Positions 18,192 to 32,660 of a stretch of DNA of 64,000 nt are shown piece after piece (positions within the stretch are counted from its first letter, which is position 1; each line of letters starts with the position of its first letter). A model generated the notes under the pieces. It saw only the letters and a list, made by a program, of their open reading frames with translations, was not told the origin of the DNA and did no database searches. The stretch comes from Ruania alba (GTDB lineage Bacteria; Actinomycetota; Actinomycetes; Actinomycetales; Beutenbergiaceae): the NCBI RefSeq assembly GCF_900105765.1, contig NZ_FNTX01000002.1, positions 2,294,001 through 2,358,000 on the forward strand, given 5' to 3'. Made by a program: the position numbers and the translations under genes.

Positions 18192-18221
18192 TTGACACAG
18201 CACCACACTGTCCGCTAATTT
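18192..18221 (+). promoter_or_regulatory. Near-consensus promoter of the beta-propeller gene
   Basis: TTGACA (18192-18197) and TAATTT (18216-18221) are separated by 18 bases. This is the best vegetative promoter match in the window, and its -10 box abuts the palindromic operator. Confidence 0.7.
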
Positions 18222-18233
18222 CGGTCCGGACCG
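18222..18233. promoter_or_regulatory. Palindromic operator CGGTCCGGACCG, copy 1
   Basis: A perfect 12-bp palindrome directly downstream of the -10 box, covering the expected transcription start, so a bound protein should repress. The same 12-mer, extended to CGGTCCGGACCGTTA in both places, is found at 31842-31853. The half-site GGTC-GACC resembles FadR-type GntR sites by family knowledge. Confidence 0.7.
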
Positions 18234-18291
18234 TTAATCAGAGATGATCCGAGCGGTCGCACCGCTGTCGATGACGACCAAGGAGTGCAGG

Positions 18292-20580
18292 ATGAGATCC
18301 CGACCATCTGCCACGATCGCGCTGGCGGCCTCGGCCGCCATGCTGCTGGGGGCCGCCATCGGCGTGCCCGCCTCGGCCACTATCCACCCGCCCTCGGCCG
18401 TCGGTATCGAGGCGACCGGGTCTACCGGTGATCCGGTCACCGACCTGGGGGAGGCCGTCCGGAAGACCCAGGTGCTCGCCTCGGCCACGGGAACAGCGCC
18501 TGACGGCGTCCCGTACGGCTACTACGTCGTCTCCGGCAATCAGAACACCACGGCGGAGTTCGCCGTCGTGGATCTGCGCACCGAGGAGACCGTGCTGCGC
18601 ACGCGGTTGCCCTACGGTGCGAGCAGCCAGCGTGCGCTGGACGTCTCTCCGGTCGACGGCACGGTCTACTTCGGCACCTCCGACGTCGGCCACGTCTACC
18701 GCTACGTGCCTGGCGCCGATGACGTCGAACACCTGGCCGAGCTGCCCACCGGTGTCCGCGCCTGGGGCCTGGCGGTCGATGAGGACGGTGTCCCGTGGAT
18801 CGGCGGGTACCCGACCGGTGCGTTGTACTCCCTCGACGCGGACTCGGGCGAGCTCACCAACCATGGGCAGGCGATCGAGGGTGAGCAGTACATCAACGCG
18901 ATCGCACCTGTGGGCGAGACCATCTACGTGGGGACCAACGCGAACGCCAAGCTGGCCGAGTTTGACCGGGCGACGGGCACGTTCACCGAGATCGCCATGC
19001 CGGCCGGCCACAGCGGCACGAACGTGACCGCGCTCGACGTGCGCGGTGATCTGATGTTCGTCAGTACCACCAACATGTACGTGCGGAACCTGGCTACCGG
19101 TGAGTGGGTCGACCGGATCACGGGCGTCAGTGCCCGGGTGTCACCGGTCTCGCCCACCGATCCGGACGCCGTCTACCTGCGACAGGGGCGGGAGGTGAAG
19201 CGCTATGACCTGAGCACCGGGGAGATCACCGGAACGGGGAACTTCCCCAACGCCACACCCGAGTCCTGGGGGTGGATGGATGTCGACGGAACCGGCCCCT
19301 ACCTGACGCTCACCTACTGGCGGGACGGCCGCACCTACGGCTGGAACCTGGCCACTGGCGCGGGCTTCTACCTCGTCCCCGACGTCGAAGGCGCCGGTGC
19401 GCCGCTGATCAGTCTCGGCACCGGTCCGCTGGGCAACATCTACGCCGGGGCCTTCCTCAGCCCGCCCGGATCGGGGATGTACGACCCGGACGGCGAGGGC
19501 ATCACGCTGCTGAACGGCACCAGCCAGGTCGAGGGCTGGGGCACGTTCGACGGCAACGTCGTCTTCGGCCGCTACCCGCAGGGCTCGGTCTACCTGTACG
19601 ACCCGGAGCAGCCCTGGAGCTACGGCAGCAACCCCGACACTCCGCCGCTGGAGCTCGGCAACGGGGTGAGCCGCCCGCAGTCGCTCATCGAGCTGACCGC
19701 CGTGCCTGACACCGTGGCTGTGGCCTCGGTGCCGAAGCCCGGCGAGCACGGCGGGGCGATCACCTTGTGGCAGCCCTATGAGGGGACCCACACCGTGTAC
19801 CGGAACGTGGTCCAGGACCAGACCCCGGTCGGTTTCGTCCAGCACGAGGGTCTGCTGTTCGGTGGCACCTCCATCGAGGGCGGGTACGGCATCGACCCGA
19901 TCACCGATGAGGCCGTGCTGTTCGCCTGGGACCCGGTCAGCACTGAGACAATGTGGACCGCCGCTCCGATCCCGGGGGCCGAGACCCTCGCCGGCTTCGC
20001 CATCGACGATGACGGTCACCTGTGGGGCGTCGCGGACAGTCGCACGGTCTTCGAGTTCGATCTGGAGAGCCAGACGTTGCTGCGTACGGTCACGATCGAC
20101 GGCGATGCTCCGATCGACCGATTCGGGGACAACGACCGGCTGCTCGTCGACCATGGTCGGCTGTTCGGCTCCGTGGCTGACCGGTTGTTCGTCCTCGACC
20201 AGGTGACCAGCGAGGTCACCAGCCTGTACGGGACGGACAGTGGCCGCAGCGACGGCGTCACCCAGGTGCATGAGCTGGCACAGGACCGCTACGGCGACCT
20301 GTACGTCATCAGCGAGGGCACCCGGTTGGCGCGCTACGACCTGCCGGAGGACGTGACGGCACCCGAGGTCACGGTCGACGCGCGCGGAGCGGCCGTGTGG
20401 TTGTCCGCTACCGACGACCAGGACGACGCACCCAGTATCGACTACCGGGTCGACGGCGGGGACTGGCAGAGCTACGACGGTGAGGATCCGATCGTGGTGT
20501 ACCCCGGTGCGGAGCTGGAGTACCGCGCCATCGACGCCGCGTGGAACTCCTCCGAGGTGGCCCGCCACACGTTCGGATGA
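18292..20580 (+). CDS. Secreted beta-propeller protein with C-terminal Ig/FN3-like domain
   Basis: A 762-residue protein. I take the ATG at 18292, behind AAGGAG, where a signal peptide begins (RPSATIALAASAAMLLGAAI, cleavage near PASA-TIH). The body shows many repeated blade-like units, such as LDVSPVDGTVYFGTSDVGHVYRY, GLAVDEDGVPWIGGYPTGALY and FAIDDDGHLWGVADSRTVFEFD. The last 80 residues (TAPEVTVDARGAAVWLSATD through YRAIDAAWN) form a separate beta-sandwich-like domain. No catalytic residues can be named. Propeller-fold polysaccharide lyases and glycan-binding proteins look like this, and its operator ties it to the sulfatase/import regulon, so an extracellular depolymerising or capturing role is plausible but unproven. 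Confidence 0.75.
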   Translation: MRSRPSATIALAASAAMLLGAAIGVPASATIHPPSAVGIEATGSTGDPVTDLGEAVRKTQVLASATGTAPDGVPYGYYVVSGNQNTTAEFAVVDLRTEETVLRTRLPYGASSQRALDVSPVDGTVYFGTSDVGHVYRYVPGADDVEHLAELPTGVRAWGLAVDEDGVPWIGGYPTGALYSLDADSGELTNHGQAIEGEQYINAIAPVGETIYVGTNANAKLAEFDRATGTFTEIAMPAGHSGTNVTALDVRGDLMFVSTTNMYVRNLATGEWVDRITGVSARVSPVSPTDPDAVYLRQGREVKRYDLSTGEITGTGNFPNATPESWGWMDVDGTGPYLTLTYWRDGRTYGWNLATGAGFYLVPDVEGAGAPLISLGTGPLGNIYAGAFLSPPGSGMYDPDGEGITLLNGTSQVEGWGTFDGNVVFGRYPQGSVYLYDPEQPWSYGSNPDTPPLELGNGVSRPQSLIELTAVPDTVAVASVPKPGEHGGAITLWQPYEGTHTVYRNVVQDQTPVGFVQHEGLLFGGTSIEGGYGIDPITDEAVLFAWDPVSTETMWTAAPIPGAETLAGFAIDDDGHLWGVADSRTVFEFDLESQTLLRTVTIDGDAPIDRFGDNDRLLVDHGRLFGSVADRLFVLDQVTSEVTSLYGTDSGRSDGVTQVHELAQDRYGDLYVISEGTRLARYDLPEDVTAPEVTVDARGAAVWLSATDDQDDAPSIDYRVDGGDWQSYDGEDPIVVYPGAELEYRAIDAAWNSSEVARHTFG

Positions 20581-20596
20581 GCACAGTGCTCGCGGT

Positions 20597-20633
20597 GCCC
20601 GGCAGGGCGACGGATCTCGTCGCCCTGCCGGGC
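20597..20633 (+). terminator. Strong hairpin after the beta-propeller gene
   Basis: Perfect 16-bp arms, GCCCGGCAGGGCGACG (20597-20612) and CGTCGCCCTGCCGGGC (20618-20633), with a five-base loop and no U-tract. It should separate the propeller gene from the regulator gene that follows. Confidence 0.75.
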
Positions 20634-20734
20634 GCTGCTGCTGTCCGGCTCCACATCCGGCGAGGTGCCGCAGGCGACGGCAGCGCCTGTGGCACGATGA
20701 ACGGCACCTGCAGCCGTCGCGGAACGGGAGACAT

Positions 20735-21967
20735 ATGACACCGGTCGTGGGCGTCGTCGGCCCGGCCGATCTCGTCCCGGGCGTGGCCGAGTCGGTCAGT
20801 GAGGTGTCCGGACTTGAGGCCATCACGCTCCCGTACTCCCACGAGTCCGAGACTCCCGACCTCGTGCGCGAGAACGCCGCGTCGGTCGATGCCTGGCTGT
20901 TCACCGGAATCGTCCCCTACACCCTCGCCAAGGGAACCACGAGCCGGCCGGCGGCGTTCGTCGACTACACCCGGGAGACGGTGCTGCGGTCGTGGGTGCG
21001 CCTGGCGCGGGAAGGGCGTGACGTCGCCCGTACCTCCATCGATACGGTGGGCATTCCGGAGCTGCGGGAGATCGCGGATGCGGTGGGCCTACCTGCGGAC
21101 CGGCCGCGTTCACTTCCACACCGGGTGGACCAGCGCGTGTCGCAGCTGATCGATTTCCACCGCAACAACCCCGACGACTCCTGGACGGCCATCACGTGTG
21201 TCTCCAGCGTGTACGAGGCACTCCGTGAGGAGATCGCGATCGTGCGGCTGGTGCCGTCGGAGAACGCAATCAGGACGGCGATCAGCCGGTTGACGCTGAC
21301 GATCAACAGCCAGGTCAGCGAGGACTCGCAGGTGGCGGTGGGTCTGCTGGCCGCTGACGACATGACCCGGGCGGCCCCCTTCCTCAAAGCGCAGGCGACG
21401 GCGCTCGCAGGCACGGTAGCCCTGGCTGAGACGGGGGAGATGCTGCTGGTCACCACACGGGGCGCCCTGGCGATCGCCTCGTACCAGTTCTCCCAGCCGC
21501 CGCTGCTGCGGCGATTGTCGGAGGCCGGCATCAGTGCCAACGCCGGGTTCGGAGTGGGACGCACGGCCCTGGAGGCCGAACAGCTGGCGCGCCGGGCACT
21601 CAACCGCGCCCGAGCGCATCCGGGACCGACGGCGGTGGTCTCGTTCCGTAATGATGTGGACCTCGCGCTCGGTCTCGGTGCCGAGAACAGTGAGGCACCC
21701 GGGGAGCAGGAGGCTCCGGCACTGGGCACCATTGCGACCCGGGTGGGCGTGGCCCTGCAGACCCTGACGCGTCTGCGCGATCTGGCACACCACCATCCGG
21801 ACGAGCCGCTGACCTCCCGGGTGGTGGCCGAGGCACTGGATGTCCAGTTGCGGACCGCGCGGCGGATGTTGCAGCGGCTGGAGCGCGGAGGATATGCCGA
21901 ACGGGTGGGAAACGAAGCACGAGAGTCCAGCGGCAGGCCGCTCACGCAGTACCTGCTGCATCTGTAG
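20735..21967 (+). CDS. Putative transcriptional regulator with degenerate GGDEF-like domain and C-terminal winged helix
   Basis: A 410-residue cytoplasmic protein started at the ATG at 20735 (MTPVVGVVGPADLV) behind GGAACGGGAG. Residues 1-130 look like an alpha/beta sensor domain (VDAWLFTGIVPYTLAKG, FVDYTRETVLRSWVRL). The middle (about 190-310) resembles a nucleotidyl-cyclase/GGDEF fold in AGFGVGRTALEAEQLARRAL but has no GGDEF active-site motif. The last 70 residues form a winged helix (VVAEALDVQLRTARRMLQRLERGGYAE). I do not recognise a named family. It lies just before the two sulfatases and after the operator-controlled propeller gene, so it may sense a pathway intermediate and regulate this locus. 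Confidence 0.55.
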   Translation: MTPVVGVVGPADLVPGVAESVSEVSGLEAITLPYSHESETPDLVRENAASVDAWLFTGIVPYTLAKGTTSRPAAFVDYTRETVLRSWVRLAREGRDVARTSIDTVGIPELREIADAVGLPADRPRSLPHRVDQRVSQLIDFHRNNPDDSWTAITCVSSVYEALREEIAIVRLVPSENAIRTAISRLTLTINSQVSEDSQVAVGLLAADDMTRAAPFLKAQATALAGTVALAETGEMLLVTTRGALAIASYQFSQPPLLRRLSEAGISANAGFGVGRTALEAEQLARRALNRARAHPGPTAVVSFRNDVDLALGLGAENSEAPGEQEAPALGTIATRVGVALQTLTRLRDLAHHHPDEPLTSRVVAEALDVQLRTARRMLQRLERGGYAERVGNEARESSGRPLTQYLLHL

Positions 21968-22039
21968 ACCACGAGATCCGGAGAACATGGATCCGGGGTG
22001 CGTGGAAGTGTCCCCATGATTCGACGACGAGGAGATGCG

Positions 22040-23851
22040 ATGAAGCGCGCCATCATGCTGATGTTCGACAGCCTGAACCGGCACATGCTGCCGCCCTACG
22101 ATCCGCAGACGTGGGTGCAGGCACCGAACTTCGCGCGGCTGGCCCGGCGCGCTACCCGGTTCGAGAAGTTCTACGCAGGGTCACTGCCCTGTATCCCTGC
22201 TCGGCGTGAGCTGCACACCGGGCGGTACAACTTCCTGCATCGCAGCTGGGGACCGCTGGAGCCGTTCGACGAGTCGATGCCGCAGATCCTCCGAGACGCG
22301 GGCGTGCACAGCCACCTCGTCTCCGACCACCCGCACTACTGGGAGGACGGCGGAGCGACCTATCACACCCGCTACACCACCTGGGACTTCCATCGCGGGC
22401 AGGAGGGGGACCCGTGGAAGGCAGTCGTGCAGTCCGGACCGCGCGGCGCCGGCGGGCATGAGCGGGCCAGGGTGCAGGACCGGATCAACCGCACCTCCAT
22501 GCCCACCGAGGTCGAGCACGTGCAGACCAGGACGGTCGACGCGGGCCTGGAGTTCCTCGAGACCAATCACGCGGCGGACGAGTGGCTGCTCCAGCTGGAG
22601 CTTTTCGATCCGCACGAGCCCTTCTTCACTCACCAGCAGTACAAGGACCTGTACCCGGCGGACCATGACGGCTCGGCGTCGCCGGAGGCAGGGACCGACT
22701 GGCCGGACTACCGGAAGGTCACCGAATCCCCCGACCAGCTCGAGCACGTCCGCCGCGAGTATGCCGCGCTGGTCTCGATGTGCGACCGCTCGCTGGGCCG
22801 GGTTCTCGATGCGATGGATGAGTATCACCTCTGGGAGGACACGATGCTCATCGTCAACACCGACCACGGCTTCCTGCTCGGTGAGCACGGATGGTGGGCC
22901 AAGACCGTGATGCCCTGGTTCGAGGAGCTCGTGCACCTGCCGTTCTTCCTGTGGGACCCGCGATCTCCCGAGGGTGCGCAGGACACGACGGCGGTGGCTC
23001 AGACCATCGACATCGCCCCCACGTTGCTGCGCTACTTCGGGATGACGCCGCCGGAGAGCATGCAGGGCAAAGATCTGGGACTGACCAGTGCAGCTGGAGA
23101 TACCGGCGCAGTCGCCGGGACGCTCGCCGAACGCGAGGGTGGTCTCTTTGGCATCCACGGCGGGCACGTGAACGTCACCGACGGCAGGTACGTGTATATG
23201 CGCTCGGCTGCGACGCCGTCGAACGCCCCGCTGGAGCAGTTCACCCTGATGCCCACCCACATGCGTGAACGATTCCCCGTGAGCGAGCTGGCCGCCTGGG
23301 AGCCCGCGGAGCCGTTCTCGTTCACTCAGGGGCTGCGGACGATGCGCATGGAGACGCCGACCCGGTGGATGAACCCGTGGCCGCACGGGACGTTGCTCTT
23401 CGACGTGGAGCGCGATCCGCAGCAGCGTGAGCCGCTCCTCGATGACGAGGTGGAGTTGCGCATGCTGGATCTACTGGTGCGGCTGATGCGCGAGAACGAT
23501 GCACCGGCCAGCCAGTTCGCCCGGTTGGGGTTGCCCGTCGAAGGACCCGTGGGAGTCGAGCACCTCATGGCCGGCCGCGACGCCGAACGCGCCGCTGCCA
23601 CCGCGCAACCGATGCCCGACCTTGCCGGGCATCCCGCTCGGGCCGACTTGGATCGCCCGGTGGGGGAACTCCTGGGTGAGCCACGGACTCGCGACACGCT
23701 TGCCGCACATGCACCCGACCTGGCACAGACCGAGTTGCTGACGGTCTCGCCGGGGACCACCTTGATCGACCTCGCGGCCTCAGGTGCGCTCCCTGCGGCC
23801 GCACTGACCGCGATCGCCGACGATCTGGCCGCGATGGCCACTCAGCCGTGA
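22040..23851 (+). CDS. Sulfatase (formylglycine type, family S1), 603 aa
   Basis: Begins at the ATG at 22040 after GAGGAG. The sulfatase signature CIPAR is at Cys51, in GSLPCIPARRELHTGR; this cysteine is converted to formylglycine by a maturation enzyme not in the window. Metal and substrate residues are visible in MFDSLNRHML and NTDHGFLLGEHGWWAKT. After the usual C-terminal subdomain there is an extra, alanine-rich 110-residue tail (from about residue 490) unlike its neighbour. No signal peptide is present, so the enzyme should act in the cytoplasm on imported sulfated sugars. Overlaps the second sulfatase gene by four bases. The sugar substrate is not predictable. Confidence 0.88.
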   Translation: MKRAIMLMFDSLNRHMLPPYDPQTWVQAPNFARLARRATRFEKFYAGSLPCIPARRELHTGRYNFLHRSWGPLEPFDESMPQILRDAGVHSHLVSDHPHYWEDGGATYHTRYTTWDFHRGQEGDPWKAVVQSGPRGAGGHERARVQDRINRTSMPTEVEHVQTRTVDAGLEFLETNHAADEWLLQLELFDPHEPFFTHQQYKDLYPADHDGSASPEAGTDWPDYRKVTESPDQLEHVRREYAALVSMCDRSLGRVLDAMDEYHLWEDTMLIVNTDHGFLLGEHGWWAKTVMPWFEELVHLPFFLWDPRSPEGAQDTTAVAQTIDIAPTLLRYFGMTPPESMQGKDLGLTSAAGDTGAVAGTLAEREGGLFGIHGGHVNVTDGRYVYMRSAATPSNAPLEQFTLMPTHMRERFPVSELAAWEPAEPFSFTQGLRTMRMETPTRWMNPWPHGTLLFDVERDPQQREPLLDDEVELRMLDLLVRLMRENDAPASQFARLGLPVEGPVGVEHLMAGRDAERAAATAQPMPDLAGHPARADLDRPVGELLGEPRTRDTLAAHAPDLAQTELLTVSPGTTLIDLAASGALPAAALTAIADDLAAMATQP

Positions 23852-25341
23852 CCGACACACCGGGAAGGAACGATGTGGCCGAACGACCTAATGTCTGGTT
23901 CGTCATGACCGACCAGCAGCGATGGGACTCGATGGGGTACGCCGGCAACGACGTCATCGAGACCCCCAATCTCGACCAGCTCGCCTCCGAGGGGAGCTGG
24001 TTCGAGCACGCCTACAGCGCGACACCCTCGTGCATCCCGGCACGAGCGAGCCTGATGACCGGGCAGGACCCCTGGCACACGGGGATCCTCGGCATGGGGG
24101 AGGGCCAAGGGCCCGCGCAGTGCCTCGAGAACACGCTGCCGGAGTCGCTCGCGCGGGCCGGCTATCACACACAAGCAGTGGGGAAGCTGCACGTGCACCC
24201 GCAGCGTGACCTGATCGGCTTCCATCACACCGTGCTGGACGAGTCCGGTCGGCGCGAACATCCGCAGGTCCCGACCGATTACGATCGGTGGCTCCATCGC
24301 GAGGTGCCCGATGCGGGCACGGATTCGCATGGGATCGGGTGGAACTCGTTGCACAGCCGGGCGTGGCACCTGGCCGAGCGTCAGCATCCGACGTATTGGA
24401 CGGCGACCGAGTCGATCGACTTCCTGCGGCGGCGGGACCCGTCGAAACCGTTCTTCCTGATGACCTCCTTCGCCCGGCCGCACTCACCGTACGATCCGCC
24501 GGAGCCGCTGCTGAACCAGTACTTGGATGCCGATCTTCCGGAGCCGTGGATCGGGGATTGGGCCGCACGCCATGCCGTCGCCAGCTGGGCGCCGGATGCC
24601 TGGCGGGGGGTGCGCAGCCGGGAGCAGGTGCGTCGTACCCGCGCCGGCTACTACGGCACGATCACCCACATCGATCAGCAGATCGGCCGCATCCGGTTCA
24701 ACCTCGAGCGGGAGGGACTCCTGGACAACACGATCATCGTGTTCACCTCCGACCACGGTGACATGCAGGGCGATCACCACCTGTGGCGCAAGACCTACGC
24801 TTATGAGGGCTCGGCCCACATCCCGCTGTTTGTCGTGCTGCCGCAGGCGATCCGGGAGCGGTACGGCATCGAGCCCGGGACCCGGAGCGAGGCCCCCGTC
24901 TGCCTCCAGGACGTGATGCCCACCATCCTCGACGCCTGTGGGATCGAGATCCCGGAGAGCGTCGATGGCCGCAGCGTGCTGCCGGTGCTCGCCGATCCGG
25001 ATGCCCCGTGGCGGGATGCGATCCACGGTGAGCACTCCACCTGCTACGACGCCAGCCAGGAGATGCAGTACCTCACCGACGGCAGGCAGAAGTACATCTG
25101 GTTCGCTCAGGACGGTGCCGAGCGGCTGTTCGATCTGGTTGCTGACCCGCACGAGGAGAGGGATCTGGCCGCGGACCCTGCATACGCCGAGACGCTCGAG
25201 CACTGGCGCAACCGGCTCGTCGAGATCGTCGACGCACGCGACTGTGGCTGGACCGAGAACGGACGGATGGTCCCGCGAGGTGACGGCCGGCCGTTGGTCT
25301 CACCGCACTACGCGCAGCGGCTCGCCCGGCACGGGGTCTGA
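23848..25341 (+). CDS. Sulfatase (formylglycine type, family S1), 497 aa
   Basis: The S1 sulfatase core is complete: NVWFVMTDQQRWDSMGYAGN with its metal-binding aspartates, the formylglycine motif CIPAR at Cys62 (ATPSCIPARASLMTGQ), GKLHVHP, and FTSDHGDMQGDHHLWRKTYAYEGS. Length is typical. The GTG at 23848 overlaps the stop of the preceding sulfatase (GTGA); a second GTG at 23875, right behind GGGAAGGAACGAT, may be the real start. There is no signal peptide. The sequence resembles choline-sulfatase and glycan-sulfatase subfamilies in general layout. The context of sugar import and sugar-modifying enzymes favours a glycan substrate over choline sulfate. Confidence 0.9.
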   Translation: MTDTPGRNDVAERPNVWFVMTDQQRWDSMGYAGNDVIETPNLDQLASEGSWFEHAYSATPSCIPARASLMTGQDPWHTGILGMGEGQGPAQCLENTLPESLARAGYHTQAVGKLHVHPQRDLIGFHHTVLDESGRREHPQVPTDYDRWLHREVPDAGTDSHGIGWNSLHSRAWHLAERQHPTYWTATESIDFLRRRDPSKPFFLMTSFARPHSPYDPPEPLLNQYLDADLPEPWIGDWAARHAVASWAPDAWRGVRSREQVRRTRAGYYGTITHIDQQIGRIRFNLEREGLLDNTIIVFTSDHGDMQGDHHLWRKTYAYEGSAHIPLFVVLPQAIRERYGIEPGTRSEAPVCLQDVMPTILDACGIEIPESVDGRSVLPVLADPDAPWRDAIHGEHSTCYDASQEMQYLTDGRQKYIWFAQDGAERLFDLVADPHEERDLAADPAYAETLEHWRNRLVEIVDARDCGWTENGRMVPRGDGRPLVSPHYAQRLARHGV

Positions 25342-25357
25342 CTCGGCGAGTCGCAGC

Positions 25358-25654
25358 TCAGAGGTGTCGGTCGACGTCCATACGCTGATGCAGGACGCGG
25401 ATGACGTCGACCCCCTGAGGTTGGGTTCGGTAGAAGATGAGATGTGAGCCAGAGGCGTACCGACGGTAGCCCTGACGGATCTCGTCGCAGGATCGTCCCC
25501 GCTGGGGATCCGTGGCAACCCGTTCGATCGCCTGACGCAGATCGCCAAGGTAGGACTCTGCTTGTGCGACATCCCAGTGCTCCACGGTGTAGTCCCAGAT
25601 CGAGGACAGGTCACGCTGTGCTGCCGGAGTGAGCCGATAGAAGCCCTTGGTCAT
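25358..25654 (-). CDS. parE: ParE-like toxin of a type II toxin-antitoxin system
   Basis: A 98-residue RelE/ParE-fold protein beginning MTKGFYRLTPAAQRDLSSIWDYT, with the family features YLGDLRQAIERVATDP and GYRRYASGSHLIFYRTQPQG. ParE toxins poison DNA gyrase. The start overlaps the antitoxin stop (ATGA), the usual antitoxin-first order. It is convergent with the sulfatase gene, 16 bases away. The pair lies between two parts of the sulfated-glycan locus and may help hold this accessory block in the genome, which is inference. Confidence 0.92.
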   Translation of the reverse strand: MTKGFYRLTPAAQRDLSSIWDYTVEHWDVAQAESYLGDLRQAIERVATDPQRGRSCDEIRQGYRRYASGSHLIFYRTQPQGVDVIRVLHQRMDVDRHL

Positions 25655-25887
25655 CCCCGAGCCTTGTCGGCCATGAACTCATCGAAGTCAAACTGCTCCG
25701 GCTCGCCGCTTTGTTCTCCGGCAATGAGGGCCGAGCGGAGTGCCCCCAACTGGGTCTCCCTGTCCTCCAAGAGTCGGAGTCCAGCACGGATCACCTCACT
25801 CGCCGACTGGTAGCGCCCTGTAGCAACCTCGCGGGCGACGAAGTCGCGGAAGTGAACATCGAGGCTGATCGAGGTGTTGGTGGCCAT
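25651..25887 (-). CDS. parD: ParD-like antitoxin (CopG/RHH family)
   Basis: A 78-residue protein beginning MATNTSISLDVHFRDFVAREV, with GRYQSASEVIRAGLRLLEDRE, the ribbon-helix-helix DNA-binding region of ParD. The acidic C-terminus (EPEQFDFDEFMADKARG) is the usual toxin-neutralising tail. The start at 25887 is chosen by homology; the open frame extends upstream without family similarity. A -10 box TATCGT lies seven bases before the ATG, so the message is probably leaderless. A TACCA/TGGTA palindrome over the promoter is a good autoregulation site. Confidence 0.92.
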   Translation of the reverse strand: MATNTSISLDVHFRDFVAREVATGRYQSASEVIRAGLRLLEDRETQLGALRSALIAGEQSGEPEQFDFDEFMADKARG

Positions 25888-25894
25888 ACGCCCG

Positions 25895-25913
25895 ACGATA
25901 CCAAAATCTGGTA
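25895..25913 (-). promoter_or_regulatory. parDE promoter and operator
   Basis: On the minus strand, TATCGT (25900-25895) is the -10 box. The inverted repeat TACCA-AAATC-TGGTA (25899-25913) overlaps it and is placed for repression by the ParD-ParE complex. Confidence 0.55.
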
Positions 25914-26003
25914 CATCGCTCGTGGGCTGCTCGAGGCATGGATCGCCGATCCCGAGCGCGGACACCATCGAAGCCGTCCTACGCTGAAGGAGCTATTCGC
26001 CGA

Positions 26004-26663
26004 CTACGCGGCCAGGCTCCGCACCTCGAAGTTCGCGTACTCGGCGATCATCGGGGACATCTGCCGGAACCCGAACCGCCCTCGCCCCAGTGCAGGCCCA
26101 CCAGTCGATCCGTCGTCGTGCCACGCCAGCACCGGCAGGTCGTCGACGAACATCGCGACGTCCTTCCCGGCATGCCGGACCCGGATCCGGTACGGGGGCA
26201 CTGCCGTGGCGACCGGCGGGATCGGATCGGGCGCCGTGGCGACCAGGTGGAAACCATGGCTCTTCCGCAGGTTGCATGTGTGCAGACGTGGGTCGATCCG
26301 CCGTCGGAAATAGGAGAGGTGATAGGTATCGATGTCTCCGGAGTGGTACTGCGGGTAGTCGCCATCACGCGGGGAGAGCGAGGCGTCGAACAGATCGACA
26401 CCCCCTCGCCCGCGTGCGGCGAAGAACACGATGCACAGGCCGGGTTCGCGGATCGGCCAGAAGTCCCACGAATACTCCACATCGGGCCCGAACTCCTCCG
26501 GGCACCACAGCACGAAGTTGCCCTGCGTGGAGTCGTCGCTGATCACCGTGCTTTCCACCCGCATCCGACCTTGCGGGAAGCTGAGCGTCACCGGACCCTC
26601 GGCGTGAAAGCCGGCCACATCTGCCTCGGTCGCCAGCGGGTTTCGGTACATCGTCTCCGTCAT
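26004..26663 (-). CDS. DUF1961 family protein (YesU-like)
   Basis: A 219-residue protein with no signal peptide. Family-typical blocks are GNFVLWCPEEFGPDVEYSWDFWP, CIVFFAARGRGG, and DIDTYHLSYFRRRIDPRLHTCNLRKSHGFHLV, ending in GRFGFRQMSPMIAEYANFEVR. The fold is a concanavalin-type jelly roll, as in YesU of the Bacillus subtilis rhamnogalacturonan cluster. Function is not established; members may be intracellular lyases or sugar-binding proteins. It is the last gene of the operon encoding the 26.7-29.8 kb sugar importer, which supports a role in processing the imported oligosaccharide. Confidence 0.85.
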   Translation of the reverse strand: MTETMYRNPLATEADVAGFHAEGPVTLSFPQGRMRVESTVISDDSTQGNFVLWCPEEFGPDVEYSWDFWPIREPGLCIVFFAARGRGGVDLFDASLSPRDGDYPQYHSGDIDTYHLSYFRRRIDPRLHTCNLRKSHGFHLVATAPDPIPPVATAVPPYRIRVRHAGKDVAMFVDDLPVLAWHDDGSTGGPALGRGRFGFRQMSPMIAEYANFEVRSLAA

Positions 26664-26682
26664 GGCTCGCCTCCTTCGGGTG

Positions 26683-27552
26683 TTATCCCTTGATCCCGCT
26701 CGCTGCCACGCTGTTGACGATGTAGCGTTGCAGGACGGCGAACACGACCAGGCACGGAATCACCGTGACCGCGGCTGCGGCCATCAGCGTGGACTGGGAC
26801 ACGGCCTCCTGGTTCAGGCTCGCCAGCCCCACGGTCAGCGTCCGCATCTCGTCGGTCTGGGCCAGGATCAGTGGCCAGAGGAAGTCGTTCCAGTGCCACA
26901 GGAACACGAAGATCCCGAGCGTGGCGAGGATCGGTTTCGTCAGGGGGAGGACGATGCGCCAGAAGATCGTCCACTCCCGCGCGCCGTCGATCTTGGCTGC
27001 CTCGAAGAGTTCGTCGGGCAAGCCCATGATGAACTGCCGCATCAGGAACACCGCCTGGGAGTTCGCCAGTGTCGGCACGATCAGCCCCCAGAAGGTGTCG
27101 ATGCCCTCGAGCCTGGCGACCAGCACGAAGAGCGGGATGATGGTGGCCTGGGTCGGCACCATCAGGGTGGCCAGGAACGACCAGAACACGATCTCCCGGC
27201 CAGGGAAGCGCTTCTTCGCGAAGGCGTACCCGGCCATCGCCGCCGTGATCAGCACCAGTACCACGGAGACGATCGAGTAGATGGCCGAGTTCACCGTCCA
27301 GCGTAGGAAGTTGCGTGCGCTCAGGATGCCGATGAGGTTGTCGAGGGTCCACGCCTCCGGCAGCTGGTAAGGGATGGTCCGGGCGCCCTCGGGGCTGAGT
27401 GCCAGGATGAAGACGGCCACGAATGGCACCAGCGTGCCGATGGCCAGTAGTGCTGCCACCAGGATCGTTCCTGGCCGGATCGACCGCCGACGCTGGCGAA
27501 GCCCGGAGGGTGTGCCGGTCCTCTCCTCGTTCCGGATAAGCGTGGCGGTCAT
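26683..27552 (-). CDS. Carbohydrate ABC transporter permease (MalG type)
   Basis: A 289-residue permease with six membrane segments. The EAA loop that docks the ATPase is EAAKIDGAREWTIFWRIVLPL. The ending VNSVAASGIKG is standard for MalG-like proteins. It overlaps the MalF-type gene by four bases (ATGA) and sits 19 bases before the DUF1961 gene. There is no ATP-binding gene in the operon. Confidence 0.93.
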   Translation of the reverse strand: MTATLIRNEERTGTPSGLRQRRRSIRPGTILVAALLAIGTLVPFVAVFILALSPEGARTIPYQLPEAWTLDNLIGILSARNFLRWTVNSAIYSIVSVVLVLITAAMAGYAFAKKRFPGREIVFWSFLATLMVPTQATIIPLFVLVARLEGIDTFWGLIVPTLANSQAVFLMRQFIMGLPDELFEAAKIDGAREWTIFWRIVLPLTKPILATLGIFVFLWHWNDFLWPLILAQTDEMRTLTVGLASLNQEAVSQSTLMAAAAVTVIPCLVVFAVLQRYIVNSVAASGIKG

Positions 27553-28463
27553 GTGTTGCTCCGATCGAGGAAGCGGCGCTGGATCAGGGAGATGACGAAC
27601 ACGAGCAGGAAGATCACGACGCCGATCGCCGCCGCGTACCCGAAGTCGAAGAACTTGAAGCCCTGGTCATACAGTGCGTAGACGAGCGAGTAGGACGCGC
27701 GAGAGGGGCCGCCGCCGGTCATCACGTAGATCGTGTCGAAGACCTGGAAGGCAGCGATCGTCTCGATCACCAGCACGAAGAACACCACAGGCCGCAGCAG
27801 TGGCAGCGTGATCCGGAAGAACCGCTGGGTCGCGTTTGCCCCGTCCAGGGTGGCCGACTCCAGGAGATCCTCGGGGATGTTCTTCAGACCCGCCAGCAGG
27901 ATCAACATCGTGTACCCGAATCCGCGCCACGCCGAGACGATCGCGAGGGAGCTCAGAACCTGCCCCTGATTGCCGGTCAGGAAGGGGTAGGGGTCGATCC
28001 CGACGGCGGAGAGCGTGCCGTTGACGAGTCCGTCCGTGGCGAAGATCCACAGCCAGATCACCCCGGCGAGGACGAGTGAGGTCACGTAGGGCAGGAAGAG
28101 CGCGCCGCGGAAGAAGCCGGTGCCCCAGACCAGCCGGTTCAGCACCAGCGCCGTCACCATGGACACCACGACGACGAGCGGGACATAGATGACCGCGTAG
28201 ACCAACGTGGTGGTCAGGGCACCGAGGACGACCTCGTCGCCGAGCATCCGCGTGTAGTTGTCGAACCAGACGACGGAGTAGTCCCCGCTGAGCTGATAGT
28301 CCGTCAGGCTCATCCCGAGCGCGCCCAGGGTGGGCACGAACCGGAAGATGACGAACAGCACGAGCATGGGCAGCACGAAGAGGATGCCCGCCCACATCCC
28401 GTTGCGCGTGGCGGTCGAGCCGCGTCGCTGCCGCTGGCCCGCCGATGCGGAGGTGGAAGTCAT
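27549..28463 (-). CDS. Carbohydrate ABC transporter permease (MalF type)
   Basis: A 304-residue permease from the ATG at 28463 (MTSTSASAGQRQ), with a short cytoplasmic tail and six membrane helices beginning GILFVLPMLVLFVIF. The EAA-type loop is ESATLDGANATQRFFRITLPLL, followed by the conserved FDTIYVMTGGGPSRAS. It forms the heterodimeric channel with the adjacent MalG-type protein. The substrate is set by the lipoprotein encoded just upstream. Confidence 0.93.
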   Translation of the reverse strand: MTSTSASAGQRQRRGSTATRNGMWAGILFVLPMLVLFVIFRFVPTLGALGMSLTDYQLSGDYSVVWFDNYTRMLGDEVVLGALTTTLVYAVIYVPLVVVVSMVTALVLNRLVWGTGFFRGALFLPYVTSLVLAGVIWLWIFATDGLVNGTLSAVGIDPYPFLTGNQGQVLSSLAIVSAWRGFGYTMLILLAGLKNIPEDLLESATLDGANATQRFFRITLPLLRPVVFFVLVIETIAAFQVFDTIYVMTGGGPSRASYSLVYALYDQGFKFFDFGYAAAIGVVIFLLVFVISLIQRRFLDRSNT

Positions 28464-28519
28464 GGTCTCACTCTCGATCGAGTGCGGTGGGGCGCCGGGA
28501 CGCCCCACCGCTGGGGTCG

Positions 28520-29773
28520 CTACATGCGAGAGATGGCGTCCCGTGCCTCTGCGGCAGCGTCCGCCATGGCTTCCTCGGCGGTCTTCTGCCCCTGCAGGGC
28601 TGACTGGATGTGCGTGGCGAGAATCGACATCACCTGCCGCGCTCCCGGCGCCGCCTCGCCCGGGTTGGACACCGCGAGGGAGTCGAACAATGCCTGGGTG
28701 GCGTCGTCGTCGATCGTGATCTCGGCGTCCTCACGGGACGGGAACCAGCCCGCCGCTTCGAACATCGCGGACTGCGCCTCCGGCGCCGCCAGGGCGCGCG
28801 CCACCTCAAGAGCAGCTTCCTCGTCCTCATTGATCGTGGTCAGGCCGATGATGCCCGGTGTGCCGAAGGACGCCTGGACCGCACCGGTGAGCGGAGCGCC
28901 CACCGTCACGTTCTCCTCCCCGACGGCCGCCTCCAGCTGGTCGACCGAGGTGCCCGACATCGAGTACGACATCGCCGCCGTCTCCAGCGCGAGCGGCCCA
29001 CCCTCCACGGCGTTCGTCTTGGTCGCCGCATCGGCGGGCAGCCCACCGGCTTCCTGCAGGTCGAGCAGGAACTGCAGGGCGGCGACCCCCTCCGGGCCGT
29101 CGAAGGCGATGTCACTGCCGTCCTCGGTAAACACCGTGCCGCCTGCCTGCCACAGCAGTGGGTAGAAGGAGATGTTGAGCGTGGTCTCGGCCGAACCGGA
29201 GTAGTCCATGACGGAGACGCCGTTCTCGGCCAGGGCTGGTGCGGCGTCCAGGATCTCGTCCCACGTCTGCGGGAGCTCGGTGATGCCCGCCTCCTCGAAC
29301 AGTGCCGTGTTGTAGGCCGTCGCGTTCGCGGTCTGGTAGATCGGCAGTCCGTACACCTCACCGTCGAAGGTGCCGCCGGCGAGGGCACCCTCGAAGTAGA
29401 CGCTTTCGTCGTCGATGGCGCCGTCGATCGGCTTGAGACCGCCGGTGTCGTAGAAGTTTCTCGCCAGGTCCGGCACGAGCAGCACCAGGTCCGGACCGGT
29501 GTCGGCGGCGATCGCGGTCCCGATCTTCTCCTCCCGGTCCGACCAGGGCTGCAGCTCGATCGAGAGATCGATGTCGGAGTGCTCGGCCTCGAAGTCGGAC
29601 TCGAACGTCTCCCAGTACTCGCGGCTGGCGTCCGCGTCCTCGATCACGGGGTACATCCAGAGGGTGATCTCGCTGGATCCACCGTCGGCTGAGCCATCGC
29701 CCGAGGAGCAAGCGGTCAGCGCGAGCGCTGCAGCCGCTCCGACGGCGATCGTGGCTGTGGTTCGGGTTCTCAT
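28520..29773 (-). CDS. Sugar ABC transporter substrate-binding lipoprotein
   Basis: A 417-residue family-1 solute-binding protein. The lipobox ends at Cys22 (LALTAC), followed by a serine/glycine/aspartate linker. The mature part has the typical start EITLWMYPVIEDADASREYWETFESDFE and the hinge block GEVYGLPIYQTANATAYNTALFEEAG. It delivers an oligosaccharide or sugar derivative to the permease pair encoded downstream. Given the sulfatases and the shared operator, a sulfated oligosaccharide is a reasonable guess, but binding-site residues do not prove it. Confidence 0.93.
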   Translation of the reverse strand: MRTRTTATIAVGAAAALALTACSSGDGSADGGSSEITLWMYPVIEDADASREYWETFESDFEAEHSDIDLSIELQPWSDREEKIGTAIAADTGPDLVLLVPDLARNFYDTGGLKPIDGAIDDESVYFEGALAGGTFDGEVYGLPIYQTANATAYNTALFEEAGITELPQTWDEILDAAPALAENGVSVMDYSGSAETTLNISFYPLLWQAGGTVFTEDGSDIAFDGPEGVAALQFLLDLQEAGGLPADAATKTNAVEGGPLALETAAMSYSMSGTSVDQLEAAVGEENVTVGAPLTGAVQASFGTPGIIGLTTINEDEEAALEVARALAAPEAQSAMFEAAGWFPSREDAEITIDDDATQALFDSLAVSNPGEAAPGARQVMSILATHIQSALQGQKTAEEAMADAAAEARDAISRM

Positions 29774-29822
29774 GAATCCTCCAGGGGTAGGGTGATGCGT
29801 CCTCGCATCAGGGTCGGGCCGG

Positions 29823-30797
29823 TCATCGCAGCCACTCGCTGCGACGATCCGCGATGAAGTGCTCGTCCGAGGTCCACGGGTACCGAGCCAGGGCAGTGCG
29901 GATCCGGTCGGCCTGACCGGCCGAGAGCGTCTCGCGCGGGTTTAGACAGCGCATGCTCGGAAGCAGGCCCTGCCACCAGAGCACGGCGTTGACTCCCGCG
30001 ATGCACCCGCGGAGGCCGTTCTCGGCGTCGAACACTGCCGCGTTCAGCTCGGTGAGCTGCGGGGCGCGGGCGGTCAGTGCCCGGACTGCCCCGTCATCGC
30101 CCGCACGTGCCCGGTGCACCGTGGTCATCAGTTGTGCCGCCGCGTGGGTACCGACCGCCCACTGACCCAGCAGGCCGCCGTCGATCCAGCGCCCGCCGGG
30201 GAACGGAGCGACCTTCACGGCCACGACGTTCTCGATCTCGGCGAACTCTCGCCAGAAAGCCCCCGACATGCGCGGTCCGCCGATCGCCTCCTGCAGGTAG
30301 AAGCCGATCACCGGGAGTACCTCGGCCACGGACCGGGCCCGGTCGAGCATCTGCGACTCCTCCACCGCACAGTCGCGCGGAGGGCTCAGCAGCACGGCGT
30401 CATAGCCGAGCCGGGCGGCGAGCTCGGCCTCCGCAACGGCTGCGTCCTCGTCACCTGCCACGCCAGCGATCCGCACCAGCCCCGGGCTCTCGGCCAGCAC
30501 CTCGGCGGTCAGCTCGAGGACCGGTTCCAGCAGCCGGGTGCCCCGGTCGCGGATCTCGAACTGCGTCGTGTGCACGGCCGCTGCCACACCACCGGCGCCG
30601 GCCGCTGCGTAGTAGCGCACGACGGCGGCCTGGTACCTCTCGTCGAAGGTGCCGTCCTCCCGTAGGGCCAAGGGGAGGGCAGGAATGACCAGCCCGTCGC
30701 GCAACCGCGCCGTGATCTGCTCCCGCGTGCGGCGCTGTGCTGCCGGCCCGATCAGAACTGACCGTCCTGCCGCTGGAACTTCGTCGGCTTGTCCCAC
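29823..30797 (-). CDS. Dihydrodipicolinate synthase-family protein, possible internal deletion
   Basis: DapA/NanA superfamily TIM-barrel. Recognisable parts are GLVIPALPLALREDGTFDERYQ, GAGGVAAAVHTTQFEIRD and VVAVKVAPF, whose lysine should form the Schiff base. Directly after VKVAPF the sequence jumps to PGGRWIDGGLLGQW. As I know this subfamily, about 40 residues containing a YTGNDDHI-like block normally lie between these, so an in-frame deletion is suspected and activity is doubtful. The start is uncertain: the GTG at 30797 overlaps the preceding gene by 46 bases; no ATG is available. Co-transcribed with the importer genes. Confidence 0.65.
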   Translation of the reverse strand: MGQADEVPAAGRSVLIGPAAQRRTREQITARLRDGLVIPALPLALREDGTFDERYQAAVVRYYAAAGAGGVAAAVHTTQFEIRDRGTRLLEPVLELTAEVLAESPGLVRIAGVAGDEDAAVAEAELAARLGYDAVLLSPPRDCAVEESQMLDRARSVAEVLPVIGFYLQEAIGGPRMSGAFWREFAEIENVVAVKVAPFPGGRWIDGGLLGQWAVGTHAAAQLMTTVHRARAGDDGAVRALTARAPQLTELNAAVFDAENGLRGCIAGVNAVLWWQGLLPSMRCLNPRETLSAGQADRIRTALARYPWTSDEHFIADRRSEWLR

Positions 30798-31793
30798 AGC
30801 ACGCCTCCCTTCGCGATCCAGTTGGCCTGCCACTCGATCAGGGTGCGGGCGGGCACGTCGGGGTAGCCGAACAGGTCGTGGCAGCGAGCGGCATCGGCGA
30901 GCAGGGCGCTGTCGGACTCCTCGCCCTCGAAGACCACGTCCCTGCCGAGCGCCGCAGCGAGAGCGTGCGCGGCGGTACGCACCGAGAGCGTCTCCGGGCC
31001 AGTGAGGTTGATCCGGAACGGCTCCGGTGCACTGGCGTGCAGGAGCGAGCGCAGCACCACCTCATTGGCGTACCGCTGCCAGACGACGTTCACGAACCCG
31101 GTCGTCAGGTCCACCGGCCGACCATCGAGGATCGTGCGCGCCAGGTCCGCGAAGACGCCGTAGCGCGGTTCCACGGCGTAGTTCAGACGCACCAGCGCGA
31201 GACGTGTGCCGCGGGTGGCAGTGGCGGCCTCGAAGACGCGCTCGCGGCCCAGGCAGCTCATCGCATACTCGCCGACCGGCCCGGTCGGGGACTCCTCACT
31301 CGGTGCGGGTGAGCGCAGATCGGTCAACGGGTAGACGTTGCCGGTGGACAGGGCGGAGATCCGCGTCGGGATAGCGCTGGGTCACCGTGTGCGGGAGGGC
31401 GGCGTTCGTCAGCCACGCCCGGTACTCCTGCCCGGTGACCCCGAACTTGGCGCCGACCATGAAAACCACATGTCCGCCGTCGGGAAGCTGTGACTCGACT
31501 CCGGGAGAGGCAAGATCGGCCACCACGGTGGACACCCCTGCGGACTCGAGCCGCTCGCGGACCTCGGCATCGCTCCAGCGGGAGACGGCGTGCACGACCA
31601 CCTCGCGGCGTCCCGCCTCGTCCAGGGCGCGTCGGGCCATCATCGCCAGGGTCGGACCCATCTTTCCGCCCGCGCCGAGGATGACCAGGTCACCGTCGAT
31701 CTGCGCGGCGTCCTGGACGAGTCCGGGGGAGGGGGAGGAGAGTCGGCGCTCCACGGCCTCATCGCCACCGGGGGCGCCGGATTCGGTCGTCAT
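30752..31793 (-). pseudogene. NAD(P)-dependent sugar epimerase/dehydratase family protein (frameshifted as read)
   Basis: First gene of the minus-strand operon. The N-terminal frame from 31793 gives the Rossmann motif DLVILGAGGKMGPTLAMMARRAL, then HVVFMVGAKFGVTGQEYRAWLTNAALPHTV and RYPDA before going astray. The neighbouring frame picks up as ISALSTGNVYPLTDLRSPAP and continues EYAMSCLGRERVFEAAT (YxxxxxGRE-type active site) to the stop at 30752. The break lies at about 31358-31366 and needs one base removed or two added. All conserved blocks are otherwise present, so the gene is either recently broken or mis-sequenced. Its promoter holds the palindromic operator. Confidence 0.7.
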
Positions 31794-31831
31794 CGCTGGA
31801 GATCCTCCGCTGGGGCGTCATCGGCAGTTGT

Positions 31832-31863
31832 TTCATATTTACGGTCCGGACCGTTATTGTCAA
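31832..31863. promoter_or_regulatory. Divergent promoters with palindromic operator CGGTCCGGACCG, copy 2
   Basis: The palindrome is at 31842-31853, extended to ACGGTCCGGACCGT. On the minus strand TTGACA (31863-31858) and AAATAT (31840-31835) flank it with a 17-base spacer. On the plus strand TTCATA (31832-31837) and TATTGT (31855-31860) flank it, also with 17. The operator therefore lies in both spacers. Its centre is 54.5 bases from each start codon (31793 and 31902). Confidence 0.7.
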
Positions 31864-31901: not shown

Positions 31902-32660
31902 ATGCGGATCCTGCTCATCGGAGGAGGCGGTGTCGTCGGCACCGCCCTGGCCATGCGCATGCGGGACCGCCACGAGGTGACGATCCTCGACGTCCGCCAC
32001 GTCACCCTGCCCGGGGTGAGTAGCGTGGTCGGGGACGCGAACGAGCACGAGTCTCTCGAGGACCTCGTGCCGGCGGCAGATGCCGTAGTCCACCTCGCCG
32101 CGATCGTCCCGCGCGGGGCTGAGGCGGCGCGCCAGATCGATGCGGCAGTACGTCTGAACGTGGGCAGCGTGATCCAGGCCCTGACCCTGAGCGTGCGGGA
32201 AAGGGTGCCGTCGTTCGTGCACATCAGCTCACTGTCGGTCTTCCAGGAGTTCGGCCGGCACCCGATCCGCGCCGGTGCGGTGCCGGATGCGATCGCCCCG
32301 TACGGGCTCAGCAAACGGCTCGCCGAGCAGGCGTGCGCAGCGCTGGCCGCCGAGCCGACCACCGTGACCTCGCTGCGGTTGGCGTTCCCCGCTCAGGCCG
32401 GCGACTGGCCGCGGTGGCGTTCGCCGTCGGCACCCGAGGTGTCCGGGCCCCGGACGCTGCGCCTGGCCGACCGCACGCCGTATCCGGCGCTCCACCCCGA
32501 CGACCTCACCGATGCGGTCGAGCGAACCCTGACCCGGCGGGGCGAGTACGCGGCCATCGCGCTGGCCGCCGACCCGCGGACCATCGACGACGACACGGCG
32601 CTGCGGCTCCTCGGGTGGTCGGCACAGACCGGGCGCGGTTCCGTCGACTGCGTGCGGTAG
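31902..32660 (+). CDS. NAD(P)-dependent epimerase/dehydratase (extended SDR)
   Basis: A 252-residue protein behind GGAGGG. The nucleotide-binding motif is MRILLIGGGGVVGTALAMRM, the central block is ADAVVHLAAIVPRG, and the catalytic YxxxK is YGLSK in DAIAPYGLSKRLAEQACA. It is shorter than typical sugar-nucleotide epimerases (about 310 residues), mostly at the C-terminus. Divergent from the importer operon and under the same operator, so it is expected to act on the imported sugar or a derivative. Confidence 0.85.
   Translation: MRILLIGGGGVVGTALAMRMRDRHEVTILDVRHVTLPGVSSVVGDANEHESLEDLVPAADAVVHLAAIVPRGAEAARQIDAAVRLNVGSVIQALTLSVRERVPSFVHISSLSVFQEFGRHPIRAGAVPDAIAPYGLSKRLAEQACAALAAEPTTVTSLRLAFPAQAGDWPRWRSPSAPEVSGPRTLRLADRTPYPALHPDDLTDAVERTLTRRGEYAAIALAADPRTIDDDTALRLLGWSAQTGRGSVDCVR

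Follow-up and report, generated by a model that had tools for sequence, protein, structure and literature searches.

A palindromic candidate operator and its probable cognate regulator in a sugar-import gene cluster of Ruania alba and other actinobacteria

Gene content of the locus and the two operator sites

The stretch of DNA analyzed here, hereafter called the window, comprises 64,000 nucleotides of Ruania alba (assembly GCF_900105765.1, contig NZ_FNTX01000002.1, positions 2,294,001 to 2,358,000 of the forward strand) and contains two copies of a palindromic 12-mer, CGGTCCGGACCG, at 18222-18233 (operator 1) and 31842-31853 (operator 2), both of which show the 15-base continuation CGGTCCGGACCGTTA. 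The copies lie at the promoter-like sequences of genes coding for a secreted propeller protein, a sugar importer and several enzymes (Table 1). Judging by its conservation and recurrence, the palindrome very probably functions as a genuine regulatory site, one common to other actinobacteria, and the genes next to it probably form a local regulon of REG, a protein encoded within the same cluster.

The genes are arranged in what would be three transcription units: the propeller-REG-SULF1-SULF2 unit (unit 1), with gaps of about 154 and 30 bases followed by an overlap, the left unit SDR-DHDPS2-SBP-PermF-PermG-DUF1961, with gaps of no more than about 50 bases, and the right unit, consisting of SDR2. 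Two further genes considered below, coding for DHDPS1 and a Gfo/Idh protein, are not located downstream of an operator in this genome. The SDR gene is split by a 2-base gap relative to the related genomes G004 and G006, where both parts are adjacent, which reflects either a true frameshift or a mistake in the assembly.

Table 1 Features of the locus. Positions are counted from the first base of the window.
Feature	Position	Strand	Evidence or remark
Promoter-like hexamers of the propeller unit, TTGACA-18-TAATTT	18192..18221	+	TTGACA 18192-18197, TAATTT 18216-18221, read by eye
Operator 1, core CGGTCCGGACCG, with flanks TTTCGGTCCGGACCGTTA	18222..18233	.	Matrix score 34.2
PROP, secreted double beta-propeller with C-terminal beta-sandwich, first gene of unit 1	18292..20580	+	Signal-like N terminus by eye
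REG, probable cognate regulator, 410 aa	20735..21967	+	Domain architecture; operator tracks REG
SULF1, S1-type sulfatase	21998..23851 (start maybe 22037)	+	PF00884 E 1.6e-29
SULF2, S1-type sulfatase	23848..25341	+	PF00884 E 1.4e-51; 4-base overlap with SULF1
DUF1961 (YesU family), at the end of the left unit	26004..26663	-	PF09224 E 4.4e-83; 1oq1 YesU E 1.6e-61
PermG, sugar ABC importer permease (name by eye)	26683..27552	-	Homologues beside SBP in other loci
PermF, sugar ABC importer permease (name by eye)	27549..28508	-	Homologues beside SBP in other loci
SBP, importer substrate-binding protein	28520..29773	-	PF01547 E 9e-35
DHDPS2, aldolase-like, DHDPS superfamily	29823..30833	-	PF00701 E 5.5e-06, above cut-off
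SDR, at the head of the left unit	30752..31793	-	Two frames: 31793-31296 and 31381-30752
Overlapping divergent promoter-like hexamers	31832..31863	.	Kept in four aligned genomes
Operator 2, TTACGGTCCGGACCGTTA with flanks	31842..31853	.	Matrix score 36.0
SDR2, NAD-dependent epimerase/dehydrogenase-like, right unit	31902..32660	+	Kept in G002

Operator 1 starts at the base immediately following the -10-like hexamer TAATTT, and the TTGACA hexamer together with GCTAATTT of this promoter is kept in all four aligned genomes. Operator 2 fits inside the 17-base spacers of two divergent promoter-like sequences, with the hexamers TTGACA (31863-31858) and AAATAT (31840-31835) on the minus strand and TTCATA (31832-31837) and TATTGT (31855-31860) on the plus strand, and its centre, 31847.5, is 54.5 bases from both the ATG at 31793 (minus strand) and the ATG at 31902 (plus strand). 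The two copies, their 15-base continuation, the hexamers and the equal distances had all been reported in a preliminary description made from the letters of the window alone, and all of them agree with the sequence.

Occurrence of the site and the cluster in other genera

A scan of the genome collection with four close REG sequences resulted in 64 loci, one from Ruania (L114) and 63 from other genera, mostly Nonomuraea and Kribbella but also Jiangella, Micromonospora, Actinophytocola and more, in which REG is 39-48% identical. Together with 18 further loci that were fetched, 82 REG loci were searched with tblastn at 1e-6, reaching at most about 10 kb on each side. Homologues were found for DHDPS2 in 48 loci, for each of the two SDR parts and the propeller protein in 47, for the permeases in 46 and 44, for SBP in 44, for DHDPS1 in 35, for the Gfo/Idh protein in 31 and for SDR2 in 13. 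DegT aminotransferases and Amidohydro_2 proteins recur as well, since unlabelled families present in 14, 11, 9 and 7 of 21 representative loci were assigned to them from one or a few members each, the family in 9 loci being below the Pfam cut-off. The core set of SDR, DHDPS-like protein, importer, propeller and regulator thus recurs across actinobacteria. The preliminary description had known of no described system with this gene set; no description of the operator, the cluster or the regulator was found in the literature searched, where most subscription papers lay outside the scope, whereas the core set itself is not peculiar to this genome.

The shorter palindrome CGGTCNNGACCG occurs 118 times in the 63 non-Ruania loci, and 98 of these occurrences are at projected starts of homologous cluster genes, that is, from -20 to 250 bases from the tblastn-projected start: 34 at SDR, 30 at SBP, 30 at REG and one each at DHDPS2, SDR2, DHDPS1 and the Gfo/Idh gene. 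At least one such site is present in 42 of the 63 loci, while 29 control palindromes (CGGTC permuted) gave at most 6 occurrences at starts, with a median of 0. A matrix built from the 98 sites (84 distinct, none from Ruania) ranks the two sites of the window first in the 64 kb, with scores of 36.0 and 34.2 and the next match at 1.4. At a threshold of 15 it has a match in 62 of the 63 loci, a figure which is partly circular because 42 loci supplied training sites; 125 of the 168 matches are at a labelled start, and there are none in 189 codon-shuffled loci. That a single operator links the propeller gene with the importer and enzyme units, as had been proposed, is very probably correct in view of this recurrence and the conservation described below.

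As a separate observation, most Kribbella loci (L131, L134, L138 and others) have only variants of the site, such as the conserved TTTCAGCCATGACCGTAA, between REG and the propeller match.

REG and its proposed mode of action

REG consists of a PrpR_N-like region (residues 1-195), a domain with the cyclase/GGDEF fold (198-315) and a winged helix (approximately 328-410). The PrpR_N fold was found at its N terminus, with no Pfam sequence-model match over this region at E 0.01, and REG as a whole does not reach the curated cut-offs of either Pfam or NCBIfam. The only sub-cut-off matches, obtained with the longer ORF (open reading frame), are HTH_IclR, Rrf2, HTH_23, MarR_2, HTH_24 and Fe_dep_repress; an assignment to the IclR or MarR family was rejected on the scores (HTH_IclR 19.9 against a cut-off of 22, MarR_2 18.6 against 27). 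By eye, no GGDEF string was seen in REG, an observation limited to that string among the cyclase residues. REG is a regulator type without a name in the curated libraries searched. The preliminary description had left REG out of its gene list and had named GntR/FadR, LacI or TetR regulators as candidates; probably REG takes this role instead, and it has no match to GntR, LacI or TetR domains in the Pfam search.

The closest parallel is PrpR, whose PrpR_N domain has been solved (2pju, 2q5c) and with which REG has the N-terminal fold in common at 13% identity. PrpR carries an NtrC-type ATPase, in place of which REG has the cyclase-fold domain and the winged helix.

We suggest that REG acts as a one-component regulator with the palindrome as its operator, and that a REG dimer would bind WWNCGGTCNNGACCGNWW. 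From operator 1, REG would govern the propeller-REG-sulfatase unit and hence its own synthesis, and from operator 2 both divergent promoters, that is, the SDR-DHDPS2-importer-DUF1961 unit and SDR2. Autoregulation would thus proceed via operator 1 in Ruania and via REG's own upstream site in 30 of the 63 non-Ruania loci. REG would most likely act as a repressor that occludes the promoters until a small molecule binds to its PrpR_N-like domain and releases it; this ligand would probably derive from the breakdown of the imported sugar.

If REG is the binding protein, repression is rather probable because the sites are located at the -10 hexamer, in spacers and near start codons; in other genera, the median distances from the site centre to the projected start are 10 bases for SDR, 24 for SBP and 30 for REG, as expected of a repressor. 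Activation by REG, or action in either direction depending on the ligand, could be suggested by analogy with PrpR, which is an activator, but none of this placement is upstream of a -35 hexamer, and such a mode of action seems unlikely.

Ruania relatives and the place of the sulfatases

Both operators are unchanged in G004 and G006, which hold the same cluster, REG of the same-genus genome G006 being 93-94% identical. Both sites are also kept in the G002 genome, where the core has changed in the same way at each, to CGGTCCCGACCG at one and its reverse complement at the other; such an identical change at sites separated by 7 kb would be expected if one protein binds both. Sites of the WWNCGGTCNNGACCGNWW type number two each in G000, G002 and G006 and three in G004, the Ruania genomes with a close REG, versus none in G001, G003 and G007 and one in G005, which have no close REG. 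The third strict site of G004 (L238 2927-2938) is at the start of an ORF which by eye is of the LacI type, and it is perhaps that protein's own operator.

Of the cluster genes, the G002 locus contains only the propeller gene, REG, the importer and SDR2, the last kept beside operator 2, and is devoid of the sulfatase, DUF1961 and aldolase-like genes; no close copy of SULF2 is present anywhere in G002 (E 1e-60), and its other DHDPS2 relatives are remote. This bears on the label of a sulfated-glycan regulon given in the preliminary description, a reading that makes the sulfatases central. Such a reading draws on the two overlapping sulfatase genes that follow REG on the same strand and are kept in G004 and G006, but the sulfatases are not a conserved part of the system: they are found in three of the four cluster-bearing Ruania genomes, and both sites persist in the fourth without them. 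In the 82 REG loci, sulfatases and DUF1961 were detected in L114, the Ruania locus, which stems from the same genome as G006, whereas the 81 non-Ruania loci gave no match within the reach given above, with copies elsewhere in those genomes possible. The Ruania sulfatases look like a lineage-specific addition to the REG unit, a sulfated-glycan regulon built around them is unlikely, and the label would describe at most a Ruania add-on.

Association of the site with REG

It was of interest whether the site follows REG or the enzymes. Among the loci that did not supply training sites, 22 with a distant REG (25-31% identity) have matrix scores of no more than 8.7, though 11 of them carry cluster homologues, and of nine pieces with REG at 38.5% identity or more, some of which share a genome, eight score from 15.7 to 36. 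In 394 genomes of the class, the strict site TTNCGGTCNNGACCGNAA, which the sites of the window themselves do not match as they end in TTA, is present in 9 of 18 genomes with a close REG versus 9 of 376 without (Fisher 3.4e-9, which is optimistic because the genomes are related); within one family, the numbers are 7 of 14 versus 0 of 8. By these counts the site tracks a close REG and not the cluster genes, and it is likely that REG binds the palindrome and so controls the three units.

It could be supposed instead that another regulator encoded elsewhere, for example of the HutC/GntR type with a DasR-like site, binds the palindrome and that REG is a mere neighbour. DasR-type regulons of actinobacteria likewise have a palindromic operator with a GGTCNNGACC core controlling sugar import, and the half-sites of DasR resemble the core found here, which would fit such a regulator, as would the strict sites in genomes without a close REG. 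REG differs from the DasR type in architecture and in having no Pfam match to GntR domains. The association of the site with REG, including its position directly upstream of REG in nearly half of the non-Ruania loci, argues against the neighbour role. In a search of the 14 families common to at least four of 21 loci chosen by REG, with unlabelled families assigned from one or a few members each, none besides REG proved to be DNA-binding; this search did not extend to regulators encoded far away. A different regulator is accordingly quite improbable.

Several points weigh against REG as the binding protein or against the strength of the recurrence. The operators of GntR/HutC regulators, such as TGGTCTAGACCA of DasR, look similar to the palindrome, and there are the nine genomes mentioned that carry the strict site without a close REG. 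L051, a 20-kb piece around REG in G010, has a best score of only 2.1 (L113, which overlaps it in the same genome, scores 15.7), and the strict site of G010 adjoins an SDR-DHDPS2 pair about 21 kb away from REG. Among the 63 non-Ruania loci, 21 have no strict site at a projected start; a matrix match of at least 15, often weaker or off the labelled start, is present in 20 of them and absent from L161. Matches away from a labelled start make up 43 of the 168 at this threshold. The loci are related, many being from Nonomuraea, so the counts overstate independence, and the site positions depend on start codons projected by tblastn.

A distant REG subfamily (L096-L107, L109, L111, L112; 26-32% identity) with a different recognition helix was also observed, some members of which adjoin homologous propeller and importer genes.

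Frequency of the palindrome in the window and the genome

In the genome of R. alba (4.83 Mb, two contigs) the 12-mer has 3 copies compared with 2 for the reversed control; by itself it is at background and proves nothing. The third copy falls within an ORF of 406 aa (L001 85-1961) which adjoins an ORF that is sulfatase-like by eye, a coincidence as we assume. With up to two mismatches, 29 matches are present in the window against 20.3 expected (4 of 100 shuffles reach 29), and CGGTCNNGACCG occurs there 3 times against 0.61 expected (2 of 100 shuffles reach 3). With up to three mismatches, the genome has 147 forward matches compared with 79 for the control, and nothing is concluded from the excess.

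The picture is different for the flanked form TWWCGGTCCGGACCGWWA. The preliminary description had regarded the 15-mer being common in unrelated promoters as evidence against a shared operator; allowing at most one mismatch, TWWCGGTCCGGACCGWWA was found in the genome only at the two sites of the window, with 0 for the control. Sites of this type are present in 6 of the 149 genomes searched, our own included (G000, G002, G004, G006, G082, G142); in G142, for which no REG match is listed, the site lies inside an ORF resembling narG by eye. For WWNCGGTCNNGACCGNWW with one mismatch there are three extra places in the genome (5 forward matches in total versus 3 for the control), one in the 406-aa ORF and two within open frames 342 and 364 codons long, one of these two being situated about 0.8 kb away from a permease homologue (about 31% identity). 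All three were read as chance matches. Taking the flanks and the relatives into account, the pair exceeds what chance would give, and a chance repeat of a GC-rich palindrome, suggested by the background frequency of the bare 12-mer, is practically negligible given that the sites are conserved in relatives and recur in other genera at the promoters of homologous genes.

Proteins of the cluster and related systems

The structure model of PROP has a mean pLDDT of 87. Its best Foldseek E-values are with the sensor domains of BT4663 and BT4673 (4a2m, 3va6), hybrid two-component sensors of Bacteroides, at TM-scores of only 0.26-0.31 by query length and 11-13% identity; unlike these, PROP has no kinase or DNA-binding part, and many unrelated proteins can be superposed on its propellers equally well. 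Searched for a hint of the substrate, the fold matches consisted of generic propellers only. PDB sequence searches with a Nonomuraea SDR, DHDPS2 and SDR2 gave nothing or one weak match, and DHDPS1 matches DHDPS enzymes, with a best value of 4.4e-13.

SULF1 and SULF2 are both above the PF00884 cut-off and both contain the CIPAR formylglycine motif (C-x-P-x-R). By eye, neither of them nor REG has an evident signal peptide, and the sulfatases would therefore act after import. The closest solved chain to SULF2 by sequence is 7oz8, which appears in a review table as BT1918, a 3S-GlcNAc sulfatase (PMC10154620); no substrate of SULF2 is deduced from this. The DUF1961 protein belongs to the same Pfam family as YesU of Bacillus subtilis (1oq1), which is reported to bind fucosylated glycans preferentially (PMC6120924); here the family is confined to the three sulfatase-bearing Ruania clusters among the loci compared.

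A broader reading, which as a whole we regard as tentative and somewhat doubtful, is that REG founds an undescribed one-component family, widespread in actinobacteria, and controls an undescribed amino- or acidic-sugar pathway via WWNCGGTCNNGACCGNWW. REG would combine a ligand pocket of the PrpR_N type with a domain of the nucleotide-cyclase fold and a winged helix at the C terminus, and might respond jointly to a sugar catabolite and a nucleotide signal. The pathway would include two DHDPS-like proteins, SDR, Gfo/Idh, a DegT aminotransferase, amidohydrolases, the ABC importer and secreted double propellers, to which sulfatases and a lectin-like protein would have been added in Ruania. The comparison assigns a likely DNA site and regulon to a regulator type unnamed in the curated libraries searched. 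An anonymous cluster recurring in many actinobacterial genera becomes a testable pathway, and the operator combined with REG would serve directly as a reporter in looking for the sugar that induces it.

Between the sulfatase genes and DUF1961, at 25356-25885 on the minus strand, there is a pair of genes which by eye resemble a ParD/ParE-type antitoxin and toxin.

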